32,476 bases of DNA, taken from positions 1 through 32,476 of the forward strand of contig CAJBLH010000118.1 in assembly GCA_903953895.1 (NCBI GenBank). Reading direction: 5' to 3'. This document shows positions 21,181-32,171 of the stretch, piece after piece (the first letter of the stretch is position 1; the number at the start of each line of letters is the position of its first letter). The notes under the pieces are model-generated. The model saw only the letters and a program-made list of their open reading frames with translations, was not told the DNA's origin and made no database searches. Source of the stretch: an uncultured Desulfobacteraceae bacterium. GTDB taxonomy: Bacteria > Desulfobacterota > Desulfobacteria > Desulfobacterales > Desulfatirhabdiaceae. The position numbers were made by a program, and so were the translations under genes.

Positions 21181-21359
21181 AATTGCAATTTATCCCATTG
21201 CCGGTATTGATTTTGCCAAAGACTTGATTATCTTTGACTGTTATATCAAAAAGGGAAAACGCTCCGGGCTACGTTTCCGCTCGGATGGTATTGGAGCATA
21301 AATGTGATCAATCATCAACATCAAATGGATTGGCATCGATCATCGTCAAGGAGAAAAGT

Positions 21360-22298
21360 ATGATTCATGTTGAAAACCTCACCCGGTATTATGATGATTT
21401 CTGTGCGGTCGACGGCATTCATCTGGACATTCAAAAAGGCGAGATCCTGGGATTGCTGGGGCCGAACGGCGCCGGAAAAACCACGACCCTGAGAATGCTC
21501 ACAGGATATCTTCAGCCGTCAGCGGGTCAGATCCGGGTCAAGGATTTTACCATCGGCGCAGATACAATCGCGATCAAAAAATGTATCGGATATCTTCCGG
21601 AATCCGCTCCCCTGTATCATGACATGATGGTTTATGACTATCTGAATTATGTCGCGGATATCCGGGAGCTGAAAGCCGATCGGAAACTGACCCGGATCAA
21701 TGAACTGGCCCAATTGTGCGGCCTGAATACGGTCATGCACAAGACCATCGGGGAATTGTCCAAAGGGTTCAAGCAGCGCGTCGGCCTGGCCCATACGCTG
21801 ATGAACGACCCGGAGATACTGATTCTCGATGAACCCACCTCCGGCCTGGATCCCAATCAGATCGTGGAAATCCGGGAAATCATCCGAAAGATCGGCCGGG
21901 AGAAGACCATTATCCTGTCCACCCATATTCTCAGCGAGGCCGAAGCCACCTGCGATCGGATCGCCATCATTCATCAGGGAAAAATAGTGGCTGACGGCAG
22001 CACCCAAGCCATCAAGCAATCGGCCGGCAGAGAGCGGACAATATATATCACTCTCGAAAGTGCAAACATTGAGACGGTTCGGGCGCATCTGAAACCGGTT
22101 GCCGGGATATCCCGAATCGACAAGCTGGATTCCTCGGATCCCGATCATCTTGCCATTAAAATTTTCGTTCAGTCCGATGTCGATATCCGAAAGGACATTT
22201 ACCGGATCATTCGGCAGGCCGACTGGATATTGCTTGAGTTCCGCCAGGAAACCCAGACCCTGGAACACATTTTCCGTGAACTTACCTTGGAGAATTGA
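21360..22298 (+). CDS. gldA: ABC transporter ATPase, GldA-like
   Basis: A 312-residue ATPase with Walker A GPNGAGKTT (34-42), signature LSKGFKQR (133-140) and Walker B ILILDEPTSGLD (153-164), followed by the switch His in LSTHILSEAE. The C-terminal 80 residues form the extra domain found in GldA/CcmA/NodI-type ATPases. ATG 21360 has AAGGAG at ideal spacing; the open frame reaches back to 21234 without such support. It is the first gene of a four-gene operon with permease, auxiliary protein and DUF4340 protein. In Bacteroidetes GldA belongs to the gliding machinery. In other phyla the substrate is unknown, so the symbol denotes similarity only. Confidence 0.9.
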   Translation: MIHVENLTRYYDDFCAVDGIHLDIQKGEILGLLGPNGAGKTTTLRMLTGYLQPSAGQIRVKDFTIGADTIAIKKCIGYLPESAPLYHDMMVYDYLNYVADIRELKADRKLTRINELAQLCGLNTVMHKTIGELSKGFKQRVGLAHTLMNDPEILILDEPTSGLDPNQIVEIREIIRKIGREKTIILSTHILSEAEATCDRIAIIHQGKIVADGSTQAIKQSAGRERTIYITLESANIETVRAHLKPVAGISRIDKLDSSDPDHLAIKIFVQSDVDIRKDIYRIIRQADWILLEFRQETQTLEHIFRELTLEN

Positions 22299-22299
22299 C

Positions 22300-23004
22300 A
22301 TGACCCCTGTTATCCACATTTTCAAAAGAGAATTCAGCGCCTATATGGTATCGCCGGTTGCCTACATTGTCATCTCGGTGTTTCTGATTATCACCGGCTG
22401 GTTTTTCTTTACCCCGTTTTTTCTGCAAAATCAGGCCAGTCTGCGTAATTTTTTCGCACTCCTTCCCCTGGTTTTCGCCTTTGTCGTGCCGGCGATCACC
22501 ATGCGTCTGTTGTCCGAGGAATTCAGTGTCGGCTCATATGAAACACTTCTGACCCTTCCGGTTACCTTCATTGATGTTGTTTTGGGAAAATTTCTGGCGG
22601 CAACCGGTTTTACGGCAGTCATGCTGGCCCCGACCCTTCTGTATCCAATTACGGTGTCGGTTCTGGGCAACCTGGACTGGGGCCCGGTTCTGGGCGGATA
22701 TATTGGCGCCTTGCTGCTGGGTGCTGCATTTTCGGCCATCGGTTTGTTGGCCTCGTCCCTGACCCGGAATCAGATCGTTGCCTTTATCGTGGGAACGGCC
22801 ATCTGTTTCAGTCTCTGCCTGATCGACAAGATGCTCTTTTTTCTGCCTCAGTCTCTGCTGGGTGTCTTTGAATACATAGGGGCGGATTTCCACTTCCAGA
22901 ACATCGCCAAGGGCATTCTGGATACACGGGACATCCTGTATTTTATCAGTGTCGGATTTATCGGACTTTACGGCGCCAATCTGGCCATGCAGGAAAAATG
23001 TTAA
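22300..23004 (+). CDS. gldF: ABC-2 type permease, GldF-like
   Basis: A 234-residue inner-membrane protein with about six hydrophobic helices (near 18-40, 50-68, 90-115, 126-150, 155-178, 208-228), typical of ABC-2 permeases. The ATG (22300) follows the gldA stop by one base, with GGAG upstream, so it is translated from the same message. The N-terminal IFKREFSAYMVSPVAYIVIS segment is characteristic of the GldF family. It forms the channel for the GldA-like ATPase. Confidence 0.88.
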   Translation: MTPVIHIFKREFSAYMVSPVAYIVISVFLIITGWFFFTPFFLQNQASLRNFFALLPLVFAFVVPAITMRLLSEEFSVGSYETLLTLPVTFIDVVLGKFLAATGFTAVMLAPTLLYPITVSVLGNLDWGPVLGGYIGALLLGAAFSAIGLLASSLTRNQIVAFIVGTAICFSLCLIDKMLFFLPQSLLGVFEYIGADFHFQNIAKGILDTRDILYFISVGFIGLYGANLAMQEKC

Positions 23005-23015
23005 GGAGCGGTATT

Positions 23016-25274
23016 ATGGAAAAACAGACAACCCAGACCCTGCGATCCGGAAAATACGTCAAATTCATTGCTTATGCGGCTTTGGTAATTCTACTGAACG
23101 TAGCCGGTCTAACACTTTTTGCGCGCATCGATCTAACCGGCAACCATATCTATTCGCTTTCAAAGGCTAGCCGGGAAGCGGTCAAAGTCCTATCTGAGCC
23201 CTTGACCCTTCATGTCTTTTTTACACGCAATCTTCCGGCCCCGCACAACAGCACTGAACGGTATCTCCATGATCTGCTGGCCGAATATGCGGTATTGGCC
23301 GGCAAGAATTTCAATTACCGTTTTTACGATGTCAGCCCGGAAGACGGTACACCACAGTCGGCCAAAATCGAGAATCAGAAGCTGGCGGAATCCTACGGCG
23401 TTCAACCGGTTCAGATTCAGGCGGTCGAAAGTGATGAAGTCAAATTTCAAAAAGCTTATATGGGGCTGGTGTTGATTCACGGGGATCTCGTGGAACGCAT
23501 TCCGGCCATTACCAGCACCGACGGGCTGGAATATCAGATCACCACCGCTATTCAGAAACTGACCAACAAGGTCAGCGTGCTGCTGGCATTGAAAGATCCC
23601 ATTCAAGTGAAACTCTACAAGTCTTCATCGATGGATGCGATTGCCCCTTACATGGGGCTGGACAGCCTTCCCAGTCTTAACTCAGAAGTCGAATCTGTTG
23701 TGAAAAAACTAAACAGCCAGTTGTACGGAAAGCTCTCGTATAGTTTTCTGGATCCATCCGCGGATCCGAAGCTGGAGTCCGACATTAAAACCCACCAGAT
23801 TATGAGTTTGAAATGGCCGGAGATTTCTAACGGTAAAATTCCGGCCGGCCAGGGCGCTATCGGCATGGTGATGCAATATGGCGCTAAATCCGTCAGCATT
23901 CCGCTGCTTCATGTCATCAAGATTCCCATCATCGGCACACAGTACCAGTTGGCGGAGATGACCGCTGTCGAAGAGGCCATGAACCACCAGGTTGAAACAC
24001 TGATTGGCATCAATGAAGCACTCGGCTATCTGGCGGATCACGGCACCCCCAATCTTTACGGATCTCCGATGGCTCGTGGCCAGCAGGGTGCGTCGGAAGA
24101 CGTGGACATGTTCCGCAATCTGGTCTCGAAAACCTATTCGTTCAAGGATGTTCAGCTCCAGGAACAGACGGTTCTGGATGGGTATAACTGCCTGGTGATT
24201 GCCGGCCCCACCCAGCCTTTCACCGATTATGATCTGTTTTTAATCGACCAGTACCTGATGAAGGGCAAAAACCTGGCTGTTTTTCTGGATGCTTTCAAAG
24301 AAGGCGGCGGCCAGCAGAACATGTTCACTCCCCAGGGGCCTCAGATGGTTCCGCTGAATACTGGCCTGGAAAAGCTTCTGGAACACTACGGGATCGGCAT
24401 CAAACCGGTGATGGTGATGGATGAGAACAGTTTCAAGCAGCAGGTTCCCCCGCAGTACGGCGGCGGAGAACGCCATATCTATTTTGCACCTTTGATCAAA
24501 AACGACCAGATCAATAAGGATTATCCCTTTATGGAGTCGATCAAGGGGCTGGTTGCATTTAAAATGTCGCCCCTTCTGGCAAACAGCGACAAACTGACTC
24601 AAAACGGGGTAAAGGCCAATCTGCTGTTCTCGTCTTCCCTGAAATCCTGGGAAATGAAAGCACCGCTGAATCTTAATCCTCTGTTCATTCAGCCGCCTGC
24701 GGCCAGCGATAAAATGGCCGCACAACCCCTGGCATACATTCTTGAAGGGGAATTCCCCAGTTATTTTGCGGGAAAACCCATTCCGGAAAAGCCGCAGCCA
24801 GAGAAATCCCCCACAGGCCAGGATGAAACCGAAGACCCTGAAGACTCCGAAAAAGCACCAAATCCTGAAGCACCTGCTTCAACCGCCGATGCGGCGAAAT
24901 CAGCCGACCTTTCAAAAATTGAAGGGGAAGGGAGTGTCATTTCCAAAGGACAACCCGGGAAAATATTTATAATGGCATCTTCTGAAATGCTCAAAGACAA
25001 CATTCTGGATGAAGCCGGACGAAGCCCCAATGCTGTCTTTATTCTGAATGTTCTGGATTATCTCAACAACCATCAGGACATTGCCACGATGCGCGCCAAG
25101 GAGCAGCGGTTCAATCCGCTGGTGGATATGTCGCCGTCGGCCAAAACTGCAGTCAAGTCGCTCAACATTGCCGGGCTACCGGTACTGGTCGTTCTGGCGG
25201 GTATTGTCGTATGGCTTCGCCGTAAATCCCGCAGACGGCAAATTCAACAGATGTTTCAGAAACAGGAAGGTTGA
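23016..25274 (+). CDS. gldG: GldG-like ABC auxiliary protein
   Basis: A 752-residue membrane-anchored protein. There is an N-terminal transmembrane helix (about 20-42) and a large periplasmic part containing the ABC_transp_aux domain (from SKASREAVKVLSEPLTLHVFFT onward). A Pro/Glu-rich, low-complexity stretch occupies about 587-641, and a C-terminal helix (about 710-728) is followed by a basic tail RRKSRRR. ATG 23016 is preferred because AAGGAG (23003-23008) precedes it; the in-frame upstream ATG at 22998 overlaps gldF. It is the usual third member beside GldA and GldF. It likely acts in the periplasm as substrate-handling or structural partner. Confidence 0.88.
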   Translation: MEKQTTQTLRSGKYVKFIAYAALVILLNVAGLTLFARIDLTGNHIYSLSKASREAVKVLSEPLTLHVFFTRNLPAPHNSTERYLHDLLAEYAVLAGKNFNYRFYDVSPEDGTPQSAKIENQKLAESYGVQPVQIQAVESDEVKFQKAYMGLVLIHGDLVERIPAITSTDGLEYQITTAIQKLTNKVSVLLALKDPIQVKLYKSSSMDAIAPYMGLDSLPSLNSEVESVVKKLNSQLYGKLSYSFLDPSADPKLESDIKTHQIMSLKWPEISNGKIPAGQGAIGMVMQYGAKSVSIPLLHVIKIPIIGTQYQLAEMTAVEEAMNHQVETLIGINEALGYLADHGTPNLYGSPMARGQQGASEDVDMFRNLVSKTYSFKDVQLQEQTVLDGYNCLVIAGPTQPFTDYDLFLIDQYLMKGKNLAVFLDAFKEGGGQQNMFTPQGPQMVPLNTGLEKLLEHYGIGIKPVMVMDENSFKQQVPPQYGGGERHIYFAPLIKNDQINKDYPFMESIKGLVAFKMSPLLANSDKLTQNGVKANLLFSSSLKSWEMKAPLNLNPLFIQPPAASDKMAAQPLAYILEGEFPSYFAGKPIPEKPQPEKSPTGQDETEDPEDSEKAPNPEAPASTADAAKSADLSKIEGEGSVISKGQPGKIFIMASSEMLKDNILDEAGRSPNAVFILNVLDYLNNHQDIATMRAKEQRFNPLVDMSPSAKTAVKSLNIAGLPVLVVLAGIVVWLRRKSRRRQIQQMFQKQEG

Positions 25275-26323
25275 TGATGAAACCTAAAATAGAACATTTA
25301 TTGATTGCCATTGCCATTGTTTTACTGGTCATCTATCTGTCGGTCCGCGAGACCGACCGCGCCGAATACCGGCTTCCGGCCATTGCCAAAATCACCGCAT
25401 CCGACATCACCCGGATCGAGATCGCCCGTCAGGAAGGAACGGTCGTTCTGGAAAAGAAGGAATCCACCTGGTTGATTCAGCCCCAAGCCTATAATGCCGA
25501 TTCCGGTAAGGTGAATACCGTACTGAGTGATCTGGAAAAACTGTCTCTGACAGCCCTGGTATCCGAATCCAAGTCCTATTCCCGCTACGATCTCGAACCC
25601 GATAAAGCCATCCGGATCAAGGCTTGGGCCGGAGAAGAGCTTAAGCGCGATATCCAGATCGGTAAACCCGCTTCCACGTTTCAGCACACCTTTGTTCGGA
25701 TGGGAGATGGTGCAGAAGTGTATCATGCCTGGCAGAATTTAAGAACCGCTTTTGATCAGACTGCGGACAAACTACGTGATAAGACCGTTCTGGCTTTCAG
25801 TCTGGATGAGGTCAAGGAAATCGCCGTTACCCGATACGGCAACCAGACAGTCATCCGCAAAAGTGAGACAGCTCCGGCCCCTGATGCCGCTGTTCCCGCT
25901 CCTACAGAGCAAGTGCCGCTAGCCGGTGCCGCGCCTTCTTCTGAGGAAGCACCGCCTGCAGATGCCGCCCCCAAGCCGGCCGAAGTCCACTGGCTGACAA
26001 ATGAGGGAAAGGCCGCCGATCTGTCCAAAATGAACAAATTGCTTTCCTCACTTTCCCGGCTGTCTTGTGAATCGTATCTGGACGGCAGAAGTGTCGCCGA
26101 TTTCGGAACACCGATCAGCAGTATCGTCGTGAAGGGCAAGAAAGACTACACCCTGGCCATTTATCCCAAAACCGATAAGGATGCCAAGGAATACCCGGCT
26201 TCATCTTCGGAATCCGCTTCCATATTTACCCTGGCAGACCGCCAGGTAGAGTTGCTTGTTGCGGATACCGAAACACTGTCCGGCAATACGGATAATCGGA
26301 ATCCCCCTCATTCACCGAAGTGA
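25274..26323 (+). CDS. DUF4340 protein of the Gld-type ABC operon
   Basis: A 349-residue protein: N-terminal membrane anchor (about 8-24), then a periplasmic beta-rich region with repeated DUF4340 units (ITRIEIARQEGTVVLEKKESTWLIQP; later SSIVVKGKKDYTLAIYPKTD). An Ala/Pro/Glu-rich linker (about 200-238) divides the two parts. The start overlaps the gldG stop by one base (TGATG); ATG 25277 is equally possible, with better spacing from AGGAAGG. DUF4340 proteins commonly accompany GldG-like genes; their function is not known. Confidence 0.86.
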   Translation: MMKPKIEHLLIAIAIVLLVIYLSVRETDRAEYRLPAIAKITASDITRIEIARQEGTVVLEKKESTWLIQPQAYNADSGKVNTVLSDLEKLSLTALVSESKSYSRYDLEPDKAIRIKAWAGEELKRDIQIGKPASTFQHTFVRMGDGAEVYHAWQNLRTAFDQTADKLRDKTVLAFSLDEVKEIAVTRYGNQTVIRKSETAPAPDAAVPAPTEQVPLAGAAPSSEEAPPADAAPKPAEVHWLTNEGKAADLSKMNKLLSSLSRLSCESYLDGRSVADFGTPISSIVVKGKKDYTLAIYPKTDKDAKEYPASSSESASIFTLADRQVELLVADTETLSGNTDNRNPPHSPK

Positions 26324-26626: not shown

Positions 26627-28579
26627 TTAGGATGATATGTCCATTTGTGCGCGATAATCCTGGGTGGTCAGCAGTCGCCAGTCAGCCCGTCCCAGCAGTT
26701 CCAGAACATAGTTGTGGTAATCCAAGATGCTGCTTCTGTGGCCGACACTGATGTAATGAATATTCAGCTCTTGTAGTTTCCGGTAGAGTTTTGCTTCGTT
26801 TTCACGGTCCAGTGCGCTCGTGGCCTCATCCAGTACGGCAAACCCGGGACGGTTGATAAAGAGGCGGGCAAATGCCAGCCGTTGCTGCTCGCCCAAAGAA
26901 AGAACATCCGCCCAAGCCAGTTCGGCGCCGAATCCGCCCGATCTCTCCGGCAGATCCGCAAGATTGACGATCTGTAGAACACGTCGGAGTTCATTGTCCG
27001 GTGTCTGCTGCAACGTCCGGGGATAAAGCAGTTGATCACGCAGTGAGCCCAGGAGCATATATGGCCGTTGGGGGAGAAAATAAATATCCTTCAGATCGGG
27101 GCGCAGTATCTGACCGGATCCCTGGGTCCACAGGCCGGCAATAGCGCGCAGCAATGAACTTTTTCCGACCCCGCTCTGGCCGACGACAAGCAGATTGTTC
27201 CGGTTGATCAAATCCACAGTAAGACCCTGAAGCAGGGTACGGCTTCGAGTGGGTGTCAGAAGGGTAACATCTGTCAGGGCGAATCGGTCGGCCTTATCGG
27301 TGGTGATGCCAGTGATCGGTCGCTGCGATGGGGTTACAGCATCGGCAAAGGTCGATAGACGTTCGACCCCGGCGGCGAAACCGGTGATCTGGTCCATCTG
27401 TGACACGATGAGGGAAAGGGCCGCATAAATCTGGGAGAAGGCGAAATTGGCCTGAACCATGTCTCCATATTCAATCTGGCCGCTGAAATATTGCGGAAAT
27501 AACACCAAAAACGGCAGAACGACCGGCAGGTAACTGTATGCCGTGGTAAACAGCGACAGGTTGCGCTGCCAGCCGATGAGCAGACTGAAATTGCCGAGTA
27601 CTTTCCGGAATCGATCGCCGATCTGTGCGATTTCCGGTTTTTCTCCTTGATAAAAGGCTATTGATTCGGCGTTATCCCGGACGTGTACCAATGAATAGCG
27701 AAAATCGGCCTCAAACCGCAATTGATTGAAGTTCAGGCCGACCAGACGCCGTCCGATCAAAACAGTCAATAACGTTCCAACCAGAGAATACCCCAACACG
27801 ACGCAGACCAACAGCACGGATTTTGACCAGAGAATGCCGGTAAAAGAAATCAGATCCATCACCGACCCCAGGAGGATCAGCAGAAACCCTAAAGATGTTC
27901 GGGTGAATGAACGAATATCTTCCATGATGCGCTGATCCGGGTTGTCGATGATCGCCTGGGTCTCGATTTCGTAATAGCTTCGGTTGTCGAAATACTGACT
28001 CAGGAATTCCCGAGTCAGCCACTCTCGCCAGCGCATTCCCAGATAGCTCTGAACATAGCCGTAGAAGGCGACAATAGGGATCCCGATCATAAAGCCGCAG
28101 AAATAAACGACAACAAAGAGATATGCCATATCCTGATTTTTTTGCACCAGCGCATTGGTGAAGTAATTGGCGATAAAGCTGAAGGCAACATTGATTCCCG
28201 TTACGGAAAGCGACAGGATCAGAACCGTGGCCAGCAGTGTCCATGCCTGCCTGCGGCTGCGGACGTAACGGCCGAACAGCAAGAATGTTCCGATTGGCAC
28301 TATCAGAAAGCCGGCCAGTATCATCCATCCTTTGGAATTGAAGATGTCAGTGATTGTTGATATCAGACCGGATGCGATTTTTGCGGTCAAATCGGGTGCG
28401 AAAATGTTTCCTGCCCAGGTCATTGCGCTGACAAATATAAAAAGAATCCCGAATAGAAAAACCAGCAGCATAAACAGCAACAGCAGCGTGGCCCAGCTTC
28501 CGCCGCGGATATCCGGAAAAAAATAAGGCTGAGCAATCGTGATAAATTTTCTCCAGAGAGACCGTTTGACCTGTTCCAT
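26627..28579 (-). CDS. Fused ABC permease/ATPase, ABCD/SbmA-YddA-like
   Basis: A 650-residue half-transporter with permease and ATPase in one chain. The N-terminal part has about six transmembrane helices (28-55, 90-108, 112-135, 150-170, 240-275, 355-380). The ATPase domain has Walker A GQSGVGKSS (about 467-475), signature LSLGEQQR (about 560-567) and Walker B FAVLDEATSALD, with His in SVGHRSS. Motifs such as GMRWREWLTREFL, YYEIETQAIIDNPDQRI and EADFRYSLVHVRDNAESIAFYQGE are diagnostic of the ABC_membrane_2 group (peroxisomal ABCD, YddA, BacA/SbmA relatives, importers or exporters of fatty acyl, B12 or peptides). It begins 30 bases after the glucan synthase gene on the same strand. An export or precursor role for that pathway is inference. 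Confidence 0.88.
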   Translation of the reverse strand: MEQVKRSLWRKFITIAQPYFFPDIRGGSWATLLLLFMLLVFLFGILFIFVSAMTWAGNIFAPDLTAKIASGLISTITDIFNSKGWMILAGFLIVPIGTFLLFGRYVRSRRQAWTLLATVLILSLSVTGINVAFSFIANYFTNALVQKNQDMAYLFVVVYFCGFMIGIPIVAFYGYVQSYLGMRWREWLTREFLSQYFDNRSYYEIETQAIIDNPDQRIMEDIRSFTRTSLGFLLILLGSVMDLISFTGILWSKSVLLVCVVLGYSLVGTLLTVLIGRRLVGLNFNQLRFEADFRYSLVHVRDNAESIAFYQGEKPEIAQIGDRFRKVLGNFSLLIGWQRNLSLFTTAYSYLPVVLPFLVLFPQYFSGQIEYGDMVQANFAFSQIYAALSLIVSQMDQITGFAAGVERLSTFADAVTPSQRPITGITTDKADRFALTDVTLLTPTRSRTLLQGLTVDLINRNNLLVVGQSGVGKSSLLRAIAGLWTQGSGQILRPDLKDIYFLPQRPYMLLGSLRDQLLYPRTLQQTPDNELRRVLQIVNLADLPERSGGFGAELAWADVLSLGEQQRLAFARLFINRPGFAVLDEATSALDRENEAKLYRKLQELNIHYISVGHRSSILDYHNYVLELLGRADWRLLTTQDYRAQMDISS

Positions 28580-28609
28580 AAAGATACATTACCTAACTCG
28601 AAAAAAAAA

Positions 28610-31276
28610 TCAGAGAACCGTTGAAGGATTGTCGGAAGCCTCGGCAGGCGTATCCGTGTGGGAAGCCACAACCGGAGGAGATGCCGTAATGCGACTGATC
28701 AGTTGCGCTGGAACCCTGGCAAAGCCGCTGACAATCGCCATGATTACCGTGGCCGTATAGGGAATCGACTGGACCAGAAGAACCATGAGCCACATGAAAA
28801 TATCCGGGGTATCCGAGCCATGCCGTGACGTAATGGTGAACATGGCGATCCAGAGAGACAGCGCCATAAGTCCTTCCTCGCGGGCCGAAAGCAAAGCATG
28901 AAACAGAGCATGAGTTTGCGCCAGTTTCGGGGTTCGGAAGAACGGGATGGTCTTGGTGAAAATCCCCAACAGAATGGCTTTGGAGATGGTATGTGATAGA
29001 GACAGCCCTGCCAGGGCAGATGCAAACGTCTGGGAGATGTTGGCGCCGACGCGGTTGCGATAAAGATAAATCATTTTTGCAATTTTGAAGATAAAGAGCG
29101 ACATCGGCATGACCGATAGAATCACCATGGGGGGGTCGAATTTCAAGGGCATTAGACACATAGCCACGGACCAGAGCAGTGCTGCGAACGTAAACAGCAG
29201 ATTGATGCTGTCCGCCATCCATGGCAGCCAGCCGGCGATAAAATGGTAACGCTGACCAAAGGTCAGATTGGAGCGGCCCGGAAGAAAAAGCATCGCGGCA
29301 TGGCGCCTGAGAATTTGCATGGCGCCGTAAGCCCAGCGGAACCGCTGTTTTTTGAAGTCAATGAAGGTGTCGGGCATGACTCCCCGCCCGTAGCTGGTGG
29401 CGGTGTAAGAAGCCTCATACCCTTTCTCGAAAATTTTCAGACCAAGTTCCGCATCTTCGGTGATGCACCATTCGGCCCAGCCACTGACCTCCTGCAAAGA
29501 CTTTTTCCGCACCATGGTCATGGTGCCATGCTGGATGATGGCATTTCGTTCATTACGGGTGACCATGCCGATAAAGAAAAACCCACGGTACTCGGCGTAA
29601 CACATGGCCTTGAACATGTTCTGGGTGTCATCTCGGTAATCCTGGGGGGCCTGGACGATGGAGATTGCCGGATCGACAAACTGACTGGCCAGGTTCCGCA
29701 GCCAGTAGGGTTCAACGACGTAATCGCTGTCGATGACCGCAATCACTTCGGCATTAGGATCGGTTCGGGCAAGCGCGAAATTGAGGGCGCCCGCCTTGAA
29801 GCCGGTCAGCGGGCTGACATGAAAAAAACGGAAACGCGACCCCAGCGAGGAGCAGTGAGTCTCGATCGGTCGCCACACCAGCGGGTCTTTAGTGTTATTG
29901 TCGATAACGAGGACTTCAAAATTGGGATAATCCAACTGCGCCAGGGCGTTAAGGGTTTCCATCAGCATTTCCGGCGGTTCGTTATAGGCCGGAACATGAA
30001 CTGAAACCATCGGCAGATCACTGTCAGAGAGTTGAACCGGCGTAAACGGTCTTCTACGGACGGCCCATGAGGCTTCGGCCCATTCATGGGCTTCGGTGAA
30101 AAGAACCACAAGCACACCGATCATGCCAATGACCATCAATACGCCGACCAATCCCGTTGTCACCGTAATATATTGCCGGGTGTAACTGTAAACGATCCAA
30201 ACCCCGGCGGTGGCGGCTGAAAATGCGATGAGCCCCAAAAAACTGCGGCCACGTTTTTGTAGAGTTCGGCTGTCGATTAGAAGCAGTGCAAAGGTGATGA
30301 TGGCGATTGCCACCGATATGCCGGCCAGGGTTCGCCATTCAGGAATTTCGACGATGGGAGAGGTCAGGGGAAATTTGGGCTGTCGCTTAATATCGAAGAC
30401 TCCCCAGTAGGCGCCGACGGCGCCTTCGGTAACAGACTTCCAAGGCTGATCGAAGGCCTCCATGACATAATAGATGTATTTTTCCTGCTCAGCCCGGGCG
30501 ATGAAACGTCTAAGAAAAGTGGCCTGGTTCGCTGTTGAGGCTACAGCCGATTTTCGGGTTCTGCCGTTGCTGGGCCAACCAACTTCGGTGATGACAACGG
30601 GTTTGTTCGGGAAGGTATCTTTCAACAGATTAACGTGATCGATGATGTAATCTACGGCTCGCTCCATCTGAACGCCCTCCCAGTAAGGGAGCATGTGCGT
30701 GGCGACAAAGTCCACATGTTCAATCAGTTCGGAATGTTTGATCCAGATGTGCCAGGGTTCCGCCGTACTGACCGGAACACGGCTGCCTGTCTCACGAAGG
30801 CCGATTCGCACCCGATCGATGTAATCGCAGAGTTGTTCGCTGGTGACTTCTTCCCGAAGCAGTGCCTCGTTACCGACCACGACCCGAACCACGTTCCGCC
30901 AGTTTTCGCGGGTTAACTGAATAACGGCAGATATTTCCGCCTCGTTGCGATCGAAATCTCCGCTGATCCAGGCGCCCAGAGTAACGTTCAATTTATGCTT
31001 TCTGGCCATTGCTGGTATTTTGGCCTGTACGCTCTGCACGGTGTAAGTTCGGATAGCATTGGTTTTGTCCGCGAGCAGAGCAAGGTCGGCATCGATTTCA
31101 GCCTCGGAAGGCAAAATTCCGTCAACGGCGCTTTGACCGAGCTGAAAGGGAGAAAAAGAAAATCCCTGAATCCGGGAAGGCCAAGGCGGCTCTTGTTCCG
31201 GCTGGTTCCATAGCGCCCAGAAACTGAAGCAAAGAACGGCAATGGCGGTACAAATCAAGAAATTGATTTTCGACAT
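28610..31276 (-). CDS. ndvB: GH17-GT2 beta-1,3-glucan synthase, NdvB-like
   Basis: An 888-residue inner-membrane enzyme. A signal/anchor helix (about 5-22) leads to a periplasmic GH17 domain (about 35-310) with acid/base Glu137 in VVVGNEALL and nucleophile Glu231 in VVITEVGWPSNG. Two transmembrane helices follow (about 318-335, 370-393), then a cytoplasmic GT2 domain with VSVHVPAYNEP, DSD (516-518), TED (606-608) and QRFRW (644-648), and several C-terminal helices. GT2 polymerises glucose from UDP-glucose; GH17 is thought to act as transglycosylase, branching or cyclising the chain, as in Bradyrhizobium and Pseudomonas NdvB. ATG 31276 is preferred, with GGAG 8 bases before it; TTG 31294 also lies in frame. 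All catalytic residues appear intact. It is probably co-transcribed with the ABC gene. Confidence 0.88.
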   Translation of the reverse strand: MSKINFLICTAIAVLCFSFWALWNQPEQEPPWPSRIQGFSFSPFQLGQSAVDGILPSEAEIDADLALLADKTNAIRTYTVQSVQAKIPAMARKHKLNVTLGAWISGDFDRNEAEISAVIQLTRENWRNVVRVVVGNEALLREEVTSEQLCDYIDRVRIGLRETGSRVPVSTAEPWHIWIKHSELIEHVDFVATHMLPYWEGVQMERAVDYIIDHVNLLKDTFPNKPVVITEVGWPSNGRTRKSAVASTANQATFLRRFIARAEQEKYIYYVMEAFDQPWKSVTEGAVGAYWGVFDIKRQPKFPLTSPIVEIPEWRTLAGISVAIAIITFALLLIDSRTLQKRGRSFLGLIAFSAATAGVWIVYSYTRQYITVTTGLVGVLMVIGMIGVLVVLFTEAHEWAEASWAVRRRPFTPVQLSDSDLPMVSVHVPAYNEPPEMLMETLNALAQLDYPNFEVLVIDNNTKDPLVWRPIETHCSSLGSRFRFFHVSPLTGFKAGALNFALARTDPNAEVIAVIDSDYVVEPYWLRNLASQFVDPAISIVQAPQDYRDDTQNMFKAMCYAEYRGFFFIGMVTRNERNAIIQHGTMTMVRKKSLQEVSGWAEWCITEDAELGLKIFEKGYEASYTATSYGRGVMPDTFIDFKKQRFRWAYGAMQILRRHAAMLFLPGRSNLTFGQRYHFIAGWLPWMADSINLLFTFAALLWSVAMCLMPLKFDPPMVILSVMPMSLFIFKIAKMIYLYRNRVGANISQTFASALAGLSLSHTISKAILLGIFTKTIPFFRTPKLAQTHALFHALLSAREEGLMALSLWIAMFTITSRHGSDTPDIFMWLMVLLVQSIPYTATVIMAIVSGFARVPAQLISRITASPPVVASHTDTPAEASDNPSTVL

Positions 31277-31625
31277 AGAATTACTCCGAATCAAGGCGAA
31301 AAACGCAGTCCATTTTTATTTAATGTAAAAAAGCAAAGAGAAAGTCATCTATGTTTTCAGGAAAATGCTAACCACTCACCCCAGACATGCAAAAAATCGA
31401 CACCATTCTTGGGGGAAGATGATCAAGGGGCTCTAAACAGTTAGAATGAACCAAGAACCAGAAACTGTCAAGTCGGTTAGTAATGAAGCGGACAACAGGA
31501 AAATAAAGGGTTGGAGCAAGACAAAAGAGAGAGCAAATTCAACACCTGAATTCAAATAAAAATAGAAAAAAATGTTGATTTCTTATTTTTGGAATGTTAA
31601 AAGGGAAAGATGTGATGAAAATAAA
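31277..31625. other. Intergenic region between the glucan synthase and the tRNA cluster
   Basis: AT-rich and without a supported gene in 349 bases. It separates divergent transcription units. The right end holds the likely promoter of the tRNA-tuf operon (31575-31603). No repeat of the families seen elsewhere in the window was found. Confidence 0.5.
31575..31603 (+). promoter_or_regulatory. Possible promoter of the tRNA-tuf operon
   Basis: TTGATT (31575-31580, 4 of 6 to consensus), a 17-base spacer, and TAAAAG (31598-31603, 4 of 6). It would start transcription about 15 bases before tRNA-Thr(TGT). Consensus matching only. Confidence 0.35.
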
Positions 31626-31701
31626 GCCAGCGTAGCTCAGTTGGTAGAGCTACTGATTTGTAATCAGTGGGTCGGGGGTTCGAGTCCCTTCGCTGGCTCC
31701 A
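31626..31701 (+). tRNA. tRNA-Thr(TGT)
   Basis: 76 bases. Acceptor stem GCCAGCG/CGCTGGC; anticodon stem ACTGA/TCAGT with loop TTTGTAA, anticodon TGT at 31659-31661; T-loop GTTCGAGTC. Discriminator T and encoded CCA (31699-31701). First of the tRNA-tuf cluster. Confidence 0.97.
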
Positions 31702-31725
31702 TCAGGCTGATGGCCTGAATAAAAT

Positions 31726-31811
31726 GGTGGGGTTCCCGAGTGGCCAAAGGGAACAGACTGTAAATCTGTCGGCGAACGCCTTCGGAGGTTCAAATCCTCC
31801 CCCCACCACCA
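31726..31811 (+). tRNA. tRNA-Tyr(GTA)
   Basis: 86 bases, class II form. Acceptor stem GGTGGGG/CCCCACC; anticodon stem CAGA/TCTG with loop CTGTAAA giving GTA; long variable arm; T-loop GTTCAAATC. Discriminator A and encoded CCA (31809-31811). Second gene of the cluster. Confidence 0.97.
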
Positions 31812-31972
31812 GCCTCAATAAATGTCGCATGTAGGAGATTTCGCAGATAAGATCAAGTGAAATCACTAATAAACTACGTAGCTTCATCTGCATTGTATCT
31901 TGAGGAAAAAGACTATCTCCGGATAAGTCATCAAAAGAGAGTCTTCAGGGTGTGAAGAAGAAATGGATGTCG

Positions 31973-32048
31973 GCGGGAGTAGCTCAGTTGGTAGAGCTCT
32001 AGCCTTCCAAGCTGGATGTCGCGAGTTCGAGTCTCGTCTCCCGCTCCA
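31973..32048 (+). tRNA. tRNA-Gly(TCC)
   Basis: 76 bases. Acceptor stem GCGGGAG/CTCCCGC; anticodon loop CTTCCAA giving TCC; T-loop GTTCGAGTC. Discriminator T and encoded CCA (32046-32048). Third gene, separated from tRNA-Tyr by a 161-base spacer with no visible gene. Confidence 0.97.
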
Positions 32049-32094
32049 TAATTTCAACAGATAGGCATTCACGCATCCCACAAATTGCCAGAAT

Positions 32095-32171
32095 GCCCAC
32101 GTAGCTCAGTCGGTAGAGCGCTTCCTTGGTAAGGAAGAGGTTCATCGGTTCGACTCCGATCGTGGGCTCCA
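32095..32171 (+). tRNA. tRNA-Thr(GGT)
   Basis: 77 bases. Acceptor stem GCCCACG/CGTGGGC; anticodon stem CTTCC/GGAAG with loop TTGGTAA giving GGT; T-loop GTTCGACTC. Discriminator T and encoded CCA (32169-32171). Last tRNA before tuf. Confidence 0.97.

Follow-up and report, generated by a model that had tools for sequence, protein, structure and literature searches.

We report a pair of neighbouring genes on the minus strand of a 32,476-nucleotide window (the whole stretch of DNA analysed) from an uncultured Desulfobacteraceae bacterium, in which a GH17-GT2 beta-glucan synthase gene (28610-31276) is followed by an ABC permease-ATPase gene of the YddA/Rv1819c/ABCD type (26627-28579). The pairing is lineage-specific: the three genomes that show it (G000, the window's own, G001 and G002) all belong to a single genus, and the transporter occurs elsewhere without a linked synthase. 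A first-pass annotation of the window had suggested that the two genes may form a dedicated glucan system, a proposal that this distribution speaks against. The reading that we tentatively prefer is that an osmoadaptation-type ABC transporter has been placed, in this lineage, beside a standard glucan synthase.

Results

Identity of the glucan synthase

The synthase is encoded by an intact open reading frame running from an ATG at 31276 to a stop at 28610 (888 amino acids; an alternative in-frame TTG start lies at 31294), and Pfam places GH17 and several GT2 models on this one protein. The GH17 domain (residues 56-301; 30374..31111, minus strand) was delimited by phmmer against 4wtp/4wtr, the Rhizomucor GH17 transglycosidase, and its two catalytic glutamates, Glu137 within GNEA (codon 30866-30868) and Glu231 within TEVGWPS (codon 30584-30586), both match the motifs of that enzyme in the alignment. 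The GT2 domain (29324..30013; PF13641/PF00535) aligns with bacterial cellulose synthase and carries the DxD, TED and QxxRW motifs of a BcsA-like enzyme, all of them present as DSD (residue 516; 29723-29731), TED (606; 29453-29461) and QRFRW (644; 29333-29347). Between the two domains lie membrane helices, with hydropathy peaks at residues 316-334, 345-363 and 375-393, and the domain scan gave no PilZ match. The intact synthase and the motifs listed for it in the first-pass annotation are thus confirmed, as are the strand and the domain calls made there for both genes.

This architecture is that of the GH17-membrane-GT2 'Orphan' family, Pseudomonas NdvB included, as set out by Spiers et al. 2023 (PMC10237404). 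The window protein shares with the putative cyclic-beta-glucan synthases of Pseudomonas the order GH17 then GT2, the intervening helices, the lack of a PilZ match, the catalytic glutamate pair in its VGxE and ExGWP-like motifs, TED and QRFRW. It differs in its neighbour, an ABC gene where the Pseudomonas synthases adjoin dapE, and in its host, whose nearest named relatives are Deltaproteobacteria/Desulfobacteraceae. On its sequence it fits as a standard member of the 'Orphan'/NdvB-like family, to which it adds a further example, and a glucan product is predicted, cyclic beta-(1,3)-glucan being the one putatively ascribed to the family. The product of the family outside Pseudomonas was not found established in the literature excerpts consulted.

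Two points from that study bear on the neighbouring gene: its authors propose that the glucan made by GT2 crosses the protein's own channel and so reaches GH17 for cyclisation, and cyclic glucans are tied to osmoregulation (PMC10237404). Since a built-in channel is proposed, a separate exporter is not required, and the earlier suggestion that the ABC protein exports the glucan is weakened.

The window genome encodes two more GH17 membrane proteins (L125 7885-9921 on contig C313; L124 7853-10504 on contig C167). One, of 678 amino acids, is recognised as GH17 alone, just below the Pfam cut-off in the protein scan (27.4 vs 28.2 bits), and the other is a GH17-GT2 paralogue with 43% identity to the window synthase. 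Across the seven genomes of the genus, the GH17-only kind was matched in all seven and the paralogue kind in six.

Identity of the transporter

The ABC gene is likewise intact and encodes 650 amino acids. An elbow-like helix (residues 8-20, LWRKFITIAQPYF; 28520..28558), recognised by motif comparison and present as a helix in the AlphaFold model, is followed by two inserted membrane helices that fall in residues 28-101 (28277..28498), by the ABC_membrane_2 transmembrane domain (residues 110-365; 27485..28252; PF06472) and by the nucleotide-binding domain (residues 451-588; 26816..27229; PF00005), all on the minus strand. The ATPase motifs are intact: Walker A (residue 467; 27155-27181), the signature LSLGEQQR (560; 26879-26902), LDEAT (583; 26819-26833) and the H-loop GHR (613; 26735-26743).

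In Pfam the protein matches ABC_membrane_2 (E 3.9e-49), SbmA_BacA (7.7e-20) and ABC_tran (1.3e-14); the MsbA-type ABC_membrane model, still above its cut-off, reaches 2e-8. Among the best 60 of 144 solved structures matched by sequence, Rv1819c and the ABCD proteins come first, with E values of 5e-107 to 6e-49, and the first ABCC and ABCB exporters rank lower (7e-23 and 4e-21). The AlphaFold model, built on 24 sequences (mean pLDDT 80.4, pTM 0.62), also best matches Rv1819c and ABCD structures. With YddA, Rv1819c (mycobacterial BacA) and ABCD the protein shares the union of ABC_membrane_2 and an ATPase in a single chain; unlike them it has a helix pair between the elbow-like helix and TM1.

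The cyclic-glucan exporters NdvA and ChvA belong to the MsbA-like ABC group. They have in common with the window protein an ABC exporter-like permease and ATPase, but the latter, by its own domain and structure matches, is of the ABC_membrane_2 class and nearest to ABCD/Rv1819c. The view that the transporter lies outside the MsbA-like group, already taken in the first-pass annotation, therefore stands. As to what its relatives carry, mycobacterial BacA is a two-way transporter of hydrophilic cobalamin (PMC10960864), and YddA-type transporters have been described as of unknown function (PMC13316013).

The inserted helix pair and the relation to SbmA

The inserted helix pair marks the clade to which the transporter belongs and is missing from its closest relatives outside that clade. 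Among the 28 non-SbmA rows compared, the leader ahead of the core measures 107-115 residues in the 15 rows of this clade and in no others, where it is 22-55 residues long. The elbow motif (LWxxFxxIAQPYF, residues 8-20) is also found in six of the 13 non-SbmA rows without the helix pair, where TM1 comes directly next. In a tree of the transmembrane domain (33 rows, midpoint-rooted and subject to a long-branch warning), the 15 insertion-bearing rows form one group with support 96/92, and the SbmA rows sit on a long separate branch.

SbmA has an extra helix pair of its own, TM0 (PMC13316013), so that SbmA/BacA (SLiPT) and the window protein each have an additional pair ahead of the six-helix core. 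Because of these two extra helices, we considered the ABC protein as an SbmA ancestor, or missing link. Superposed on SbmA, the AlphaFold model aligns at 351 of 391 residues across positions 16-414, with an rmsd of 4.2 and a Z of 24.3, and the NCBIfam SbmA model covers the inserted-helix region (37-417 to 16-399). The extra helices themselves, however, have no profile similarity to TM0: hhalign gave a probability of 0.4%, from sets of 12 and 5 sequences that differ little among themselves, and hence with low power. The glutamate ladder of SbmA is not kept, glutamate being retained at two of six positions, and SbmA/BacA (SLiPT) is without the nucleotide-binding domain that the window protein has. 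The dissimilar TM0 profiles, the few ladder glutamates and the separate position of SbmA in the tree led us to reject the ancestor reading. With no profile similarity seen, the ladder not kept and an ATPase present, we take the helix pair, with modest confidence, to be a probable independent gain, separate from TM0.

Distribution of the pairing

A neighbourhood survey of GH17-GT2 loci, as the first-pass annotation had recommended, did not bear out a general association. Among the best 80 of 354 confirmed synthase loci from named genomes, an ABC transmembrane domain of this kind lies beside the synthase in two (L009 and L010), which belong to G001 and G002, both of the same genus as the window. 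The remaining 78 have no such transporter in the available flank, which reaches at least 2.5 kb downstream in 60 of the 80 loci, upstream in 59 and on both sides in 46, so that a partner may have been missed where a contig stops; the set of 80 may also omit records close to the window's genome. Two weak blastp matches to the ABC membrane domain in the flanks (L064, E 0.013; L060, E 0.38) were absent from a tblastn search of the flanks at E <= 0.01.

The neighbours of the synthase are otherwise heterogeneous across the 80 loci, in which a conserved partner was sought. A transglycosylase-domain cluster (PF00912, one member scanned) is present at 13 of them (e.g. L021 3550-4332), as the next downstream gene in 12 and near the synthase in the thirteenth. 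A sulfatase-domain cluster (PF00884, again one member scanned) lies beside the synthase at L044, L047 and L059; the neighbour at L044 (3748-5883), a protein of 711 amino acids, recalls MdoB, which Spiers et al. give as a neighbour in Desulfofustis glycolicus (PMC10237404). In G124 the ABC gene, and in G006 the synthase, is flanked by an Nramp-like gene with a universal-stress-protein-like gene behind it (L142 2950-5172; L150 8148-10477); the domain scan covered the Nramp gene of each genome and, in G124, the stress gene.

At the level of the class, 41 of 291 genomes carry the synthase (E <= 1e-150) and 16 the ABC gene (E <= 1e-90), where the two samples of 291 are taken as the same genomes and scoring was limited to 4 and 3 first-look candidates for each genome, so that extra copies can be missed. 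Both genes are found in six (G000, G001, G004, G007, G124 and G232) and are adjacent in two of these. In G232, a single contig of 7.63 Mb, the two genes are at 7.33 and 1.25 Mb, about 1.5 Mb apart if the contig closes into a circle.

Within the family, all eight genomes match the synthase at E <= 1e-60 (the match in G005 ends at a contig end, and the synthase of G007 is of the 43% paralogue type), and a relative of the ABC protein with at least 68% identity is found in G000, G001, G002, G004 and G007. The two genes adjoin only in G000, G001 and G002. In G006 the synthase is present at 83%, and the search for the ABC gene gave nothing at E <= 1e-60; G001 has a second ABC copy, and the 19 kb read about it contain no synthase. 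The pairing is thus not confined to the one strain, the outcome that the first-pass annotation had named as fatal to its proposal, although confinement to a single genus is not far from it. Given this distribution, the pairing is most simply a single event in one genus. A general synthase-transporter module was rejected, as conservation across synthase-bearing genomes fails (two of 80 loci and two of six genomes with both genes). A limited literature search, which is weak evidence of absence, found no report of a synthase-ABC pairing or of an osmotic role for YddA.

Gene order and possible co-transcription

The gap between the two genes measures 30 bases (28580-28609, minus strand), correcting the 33 first given, and holds a run of nine T residues just past the synthase stop. 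No terminator-like hairpin was found in the gap by a minus-strand terminator scan, and the fold z-scores were -0.56 and +2.08; a terminator here was set aside, the T run having no supporting hairpin. Read-through is thereby permitted, not shown, and the two genes may be co-transcribed. The order of synthase then ABC gene recurs on the same strand in the two other genomes of the genus, which excludes an assembly artefact, with wider gaps, 206 bases in one and, according to the start codon chosen, 115 or 124 bases in the other.

On the upstream side the synthase is flanked by four divergent tRNA genes (Thr, Tyr, Gly, Thr; 31626-32171, plus strand). Convergent with the ABC gene is a plus-strand group (21234-26323) encoding an ABC ATPase, an ABC2-type permease, an ABC_transp_aux/DUF7088 protein and a DUF4340 protein.

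Other neighbours of the transporter

Elsewhere the transporter has other partners. In genus g64 the ABC gene was found in three of 13 genomes searched (the family has 30), and all three copies lie downstream of TrkH-TrkA potassium uptake genes on the same strand. The distance is 17 bases in G232 and 259 bases in G678; in G124 it is 1.1 kb, and a 129-amino-acid frame on the opposite strand separates the TrkA and ABC genes.

In genus g42, a GH13 sucrose-phosphorylase-like gene stands immediately upstream on the same strand in nine of the 10 ABC-bearing genomes of the class sample, with gaps of 12-28 bases (eight measured). For eight of these nine a wider stretch was read, and each shows the unit of GH13 gene, GpgS homologue and MPG-phosphatase-family gene. 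At L144, the sole g42 representative scanned, GpgS scores 360.8 bits against a curated cut-off of 700, the GH13 protein reaches 172 bits against sucrose phosphorylase, whose cut-off is 334.4, and the phosphatase, with a cut-off of 164.75, reaches 203.8 bits; glucosylglycerate is therefore a likely but not certain product of the unit. In the tenth g42 genome, G054, the ABC gene is present and GpgS gave no match, so the transporter has no strict link to glucosylglycerate; a GpgS match is likewise missing from the window genome.

Both the synthesis of glucosylglycerate and potassium uptake of the Ktr type are part of osmoadaptation (PMC2874817). Glucan synthase, TrkH-TrkA and the glucosylglycerate-type operon are all osmoadaptation systems, and the osmoadaptation function guessed for the pair in the first-pass annotation gains indirect support from these neighbours; the link was noticed after the fact, with a marker set drawn from the same loci. 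No osmotic neighbour was found at the same-clade ABC loci of G001 (C34), G004, G007, G579, G432 and G054. Nor were osmotic markers found among the displayed neighbours of 13 further ABC relatives (L177-L183, L185-L190), whose alignments begin no earlier than residue 102 and which thus appear to be without the helix insertion; L191 (no ABC frame) and L184 (truncated ABC frame) were left out of this set. L207 and L208 were not used, their upstream sequence being too short or unclear, and the upstream open frame of L207 is of doubtful reality. Near two of the distant relatives, L187 and L188 (33-35% identity), lie large proteins of 1029 and 1047 amino acids with similar-looking starts.

Discussion

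On our preferred reading, the cytoplasmic GT2 domain would build beta-glucan from UDP-glucose, the chain would leave by the synthase's own membrane channel, and GH17, on the periplasmic side, would trim, join or cyclise it. The ABC protein, which has the two additional membrane helices and presumably acts as a homodimer, would not be the glucan exporter and would most likely move a small hydrophilic solute in osmotic adaptation. Its gene would have come to lie behind the synthase in an ancestor of the three genomes of the genus.

That the two genes are chance neighbours, with a general YddA-type transporter (for peptide, cobalamin or similar) behind the synthase in one lineage and no functional link between them, is a real if somewhat doubtful possibility. 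It would account readily for a pairing that is most simply one event, for gaps varying between 30, 115-124 and 206 bases, for the second ABC copy of G001, with no synthase in the stretch read, and for the synthase of G006, with no ABC match at the threshold used; it accounts less well for the same-strand order preserved in three genomes and for three kinds of osmotic partner in three lineages. The adjacency and orientation in three genomes, and the capacity of an Rv1819c-group protein to carry large hydrophilic molecules (PMC10960864), also speak for a dedicated two-gene system, with the ABC protein exporting the glucan or furnishing a precursor for its decoration. We consider such a system improbable in view of the 78 of the 80 nearest synthase loci with no such partner in the available flank, the channel built into the family model (PMC10237404) and the other partners with which the transporter is found.

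Import of glucan fragments or glucosides freed by GH17, which would recycle the sugar in a hypothetical direction, is more improbable still, indeed very much so. The GH13 sucrose-phosphorylase-like gene that the ABC gene follows in g42, whose product would act on a cytoplasmic glucoside, points that way, but neither a binding protein nor a beta-glucosidase is suggested beside the ABC gene among the subset of window genes scanned.

Returning to the lineage-specific placement of an osmoadaptation-type transporter, its putative osmotic role is the most useful lead. A broader claim, which we advance as speculative and rather unlikely, is that the clade with the inserted helices might be an unrecognised osmoadaptation transporter, joined according to lineage to glucan synthase, to TrkH-TrkA or to glucosylglycerate synthesis. 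If one YddA-type clade does serve osmotic adaptation, its neighbourhoods would suggest substrates for the group, namely glucosylglycerate, potassium-linked solutes or glucan fragments.
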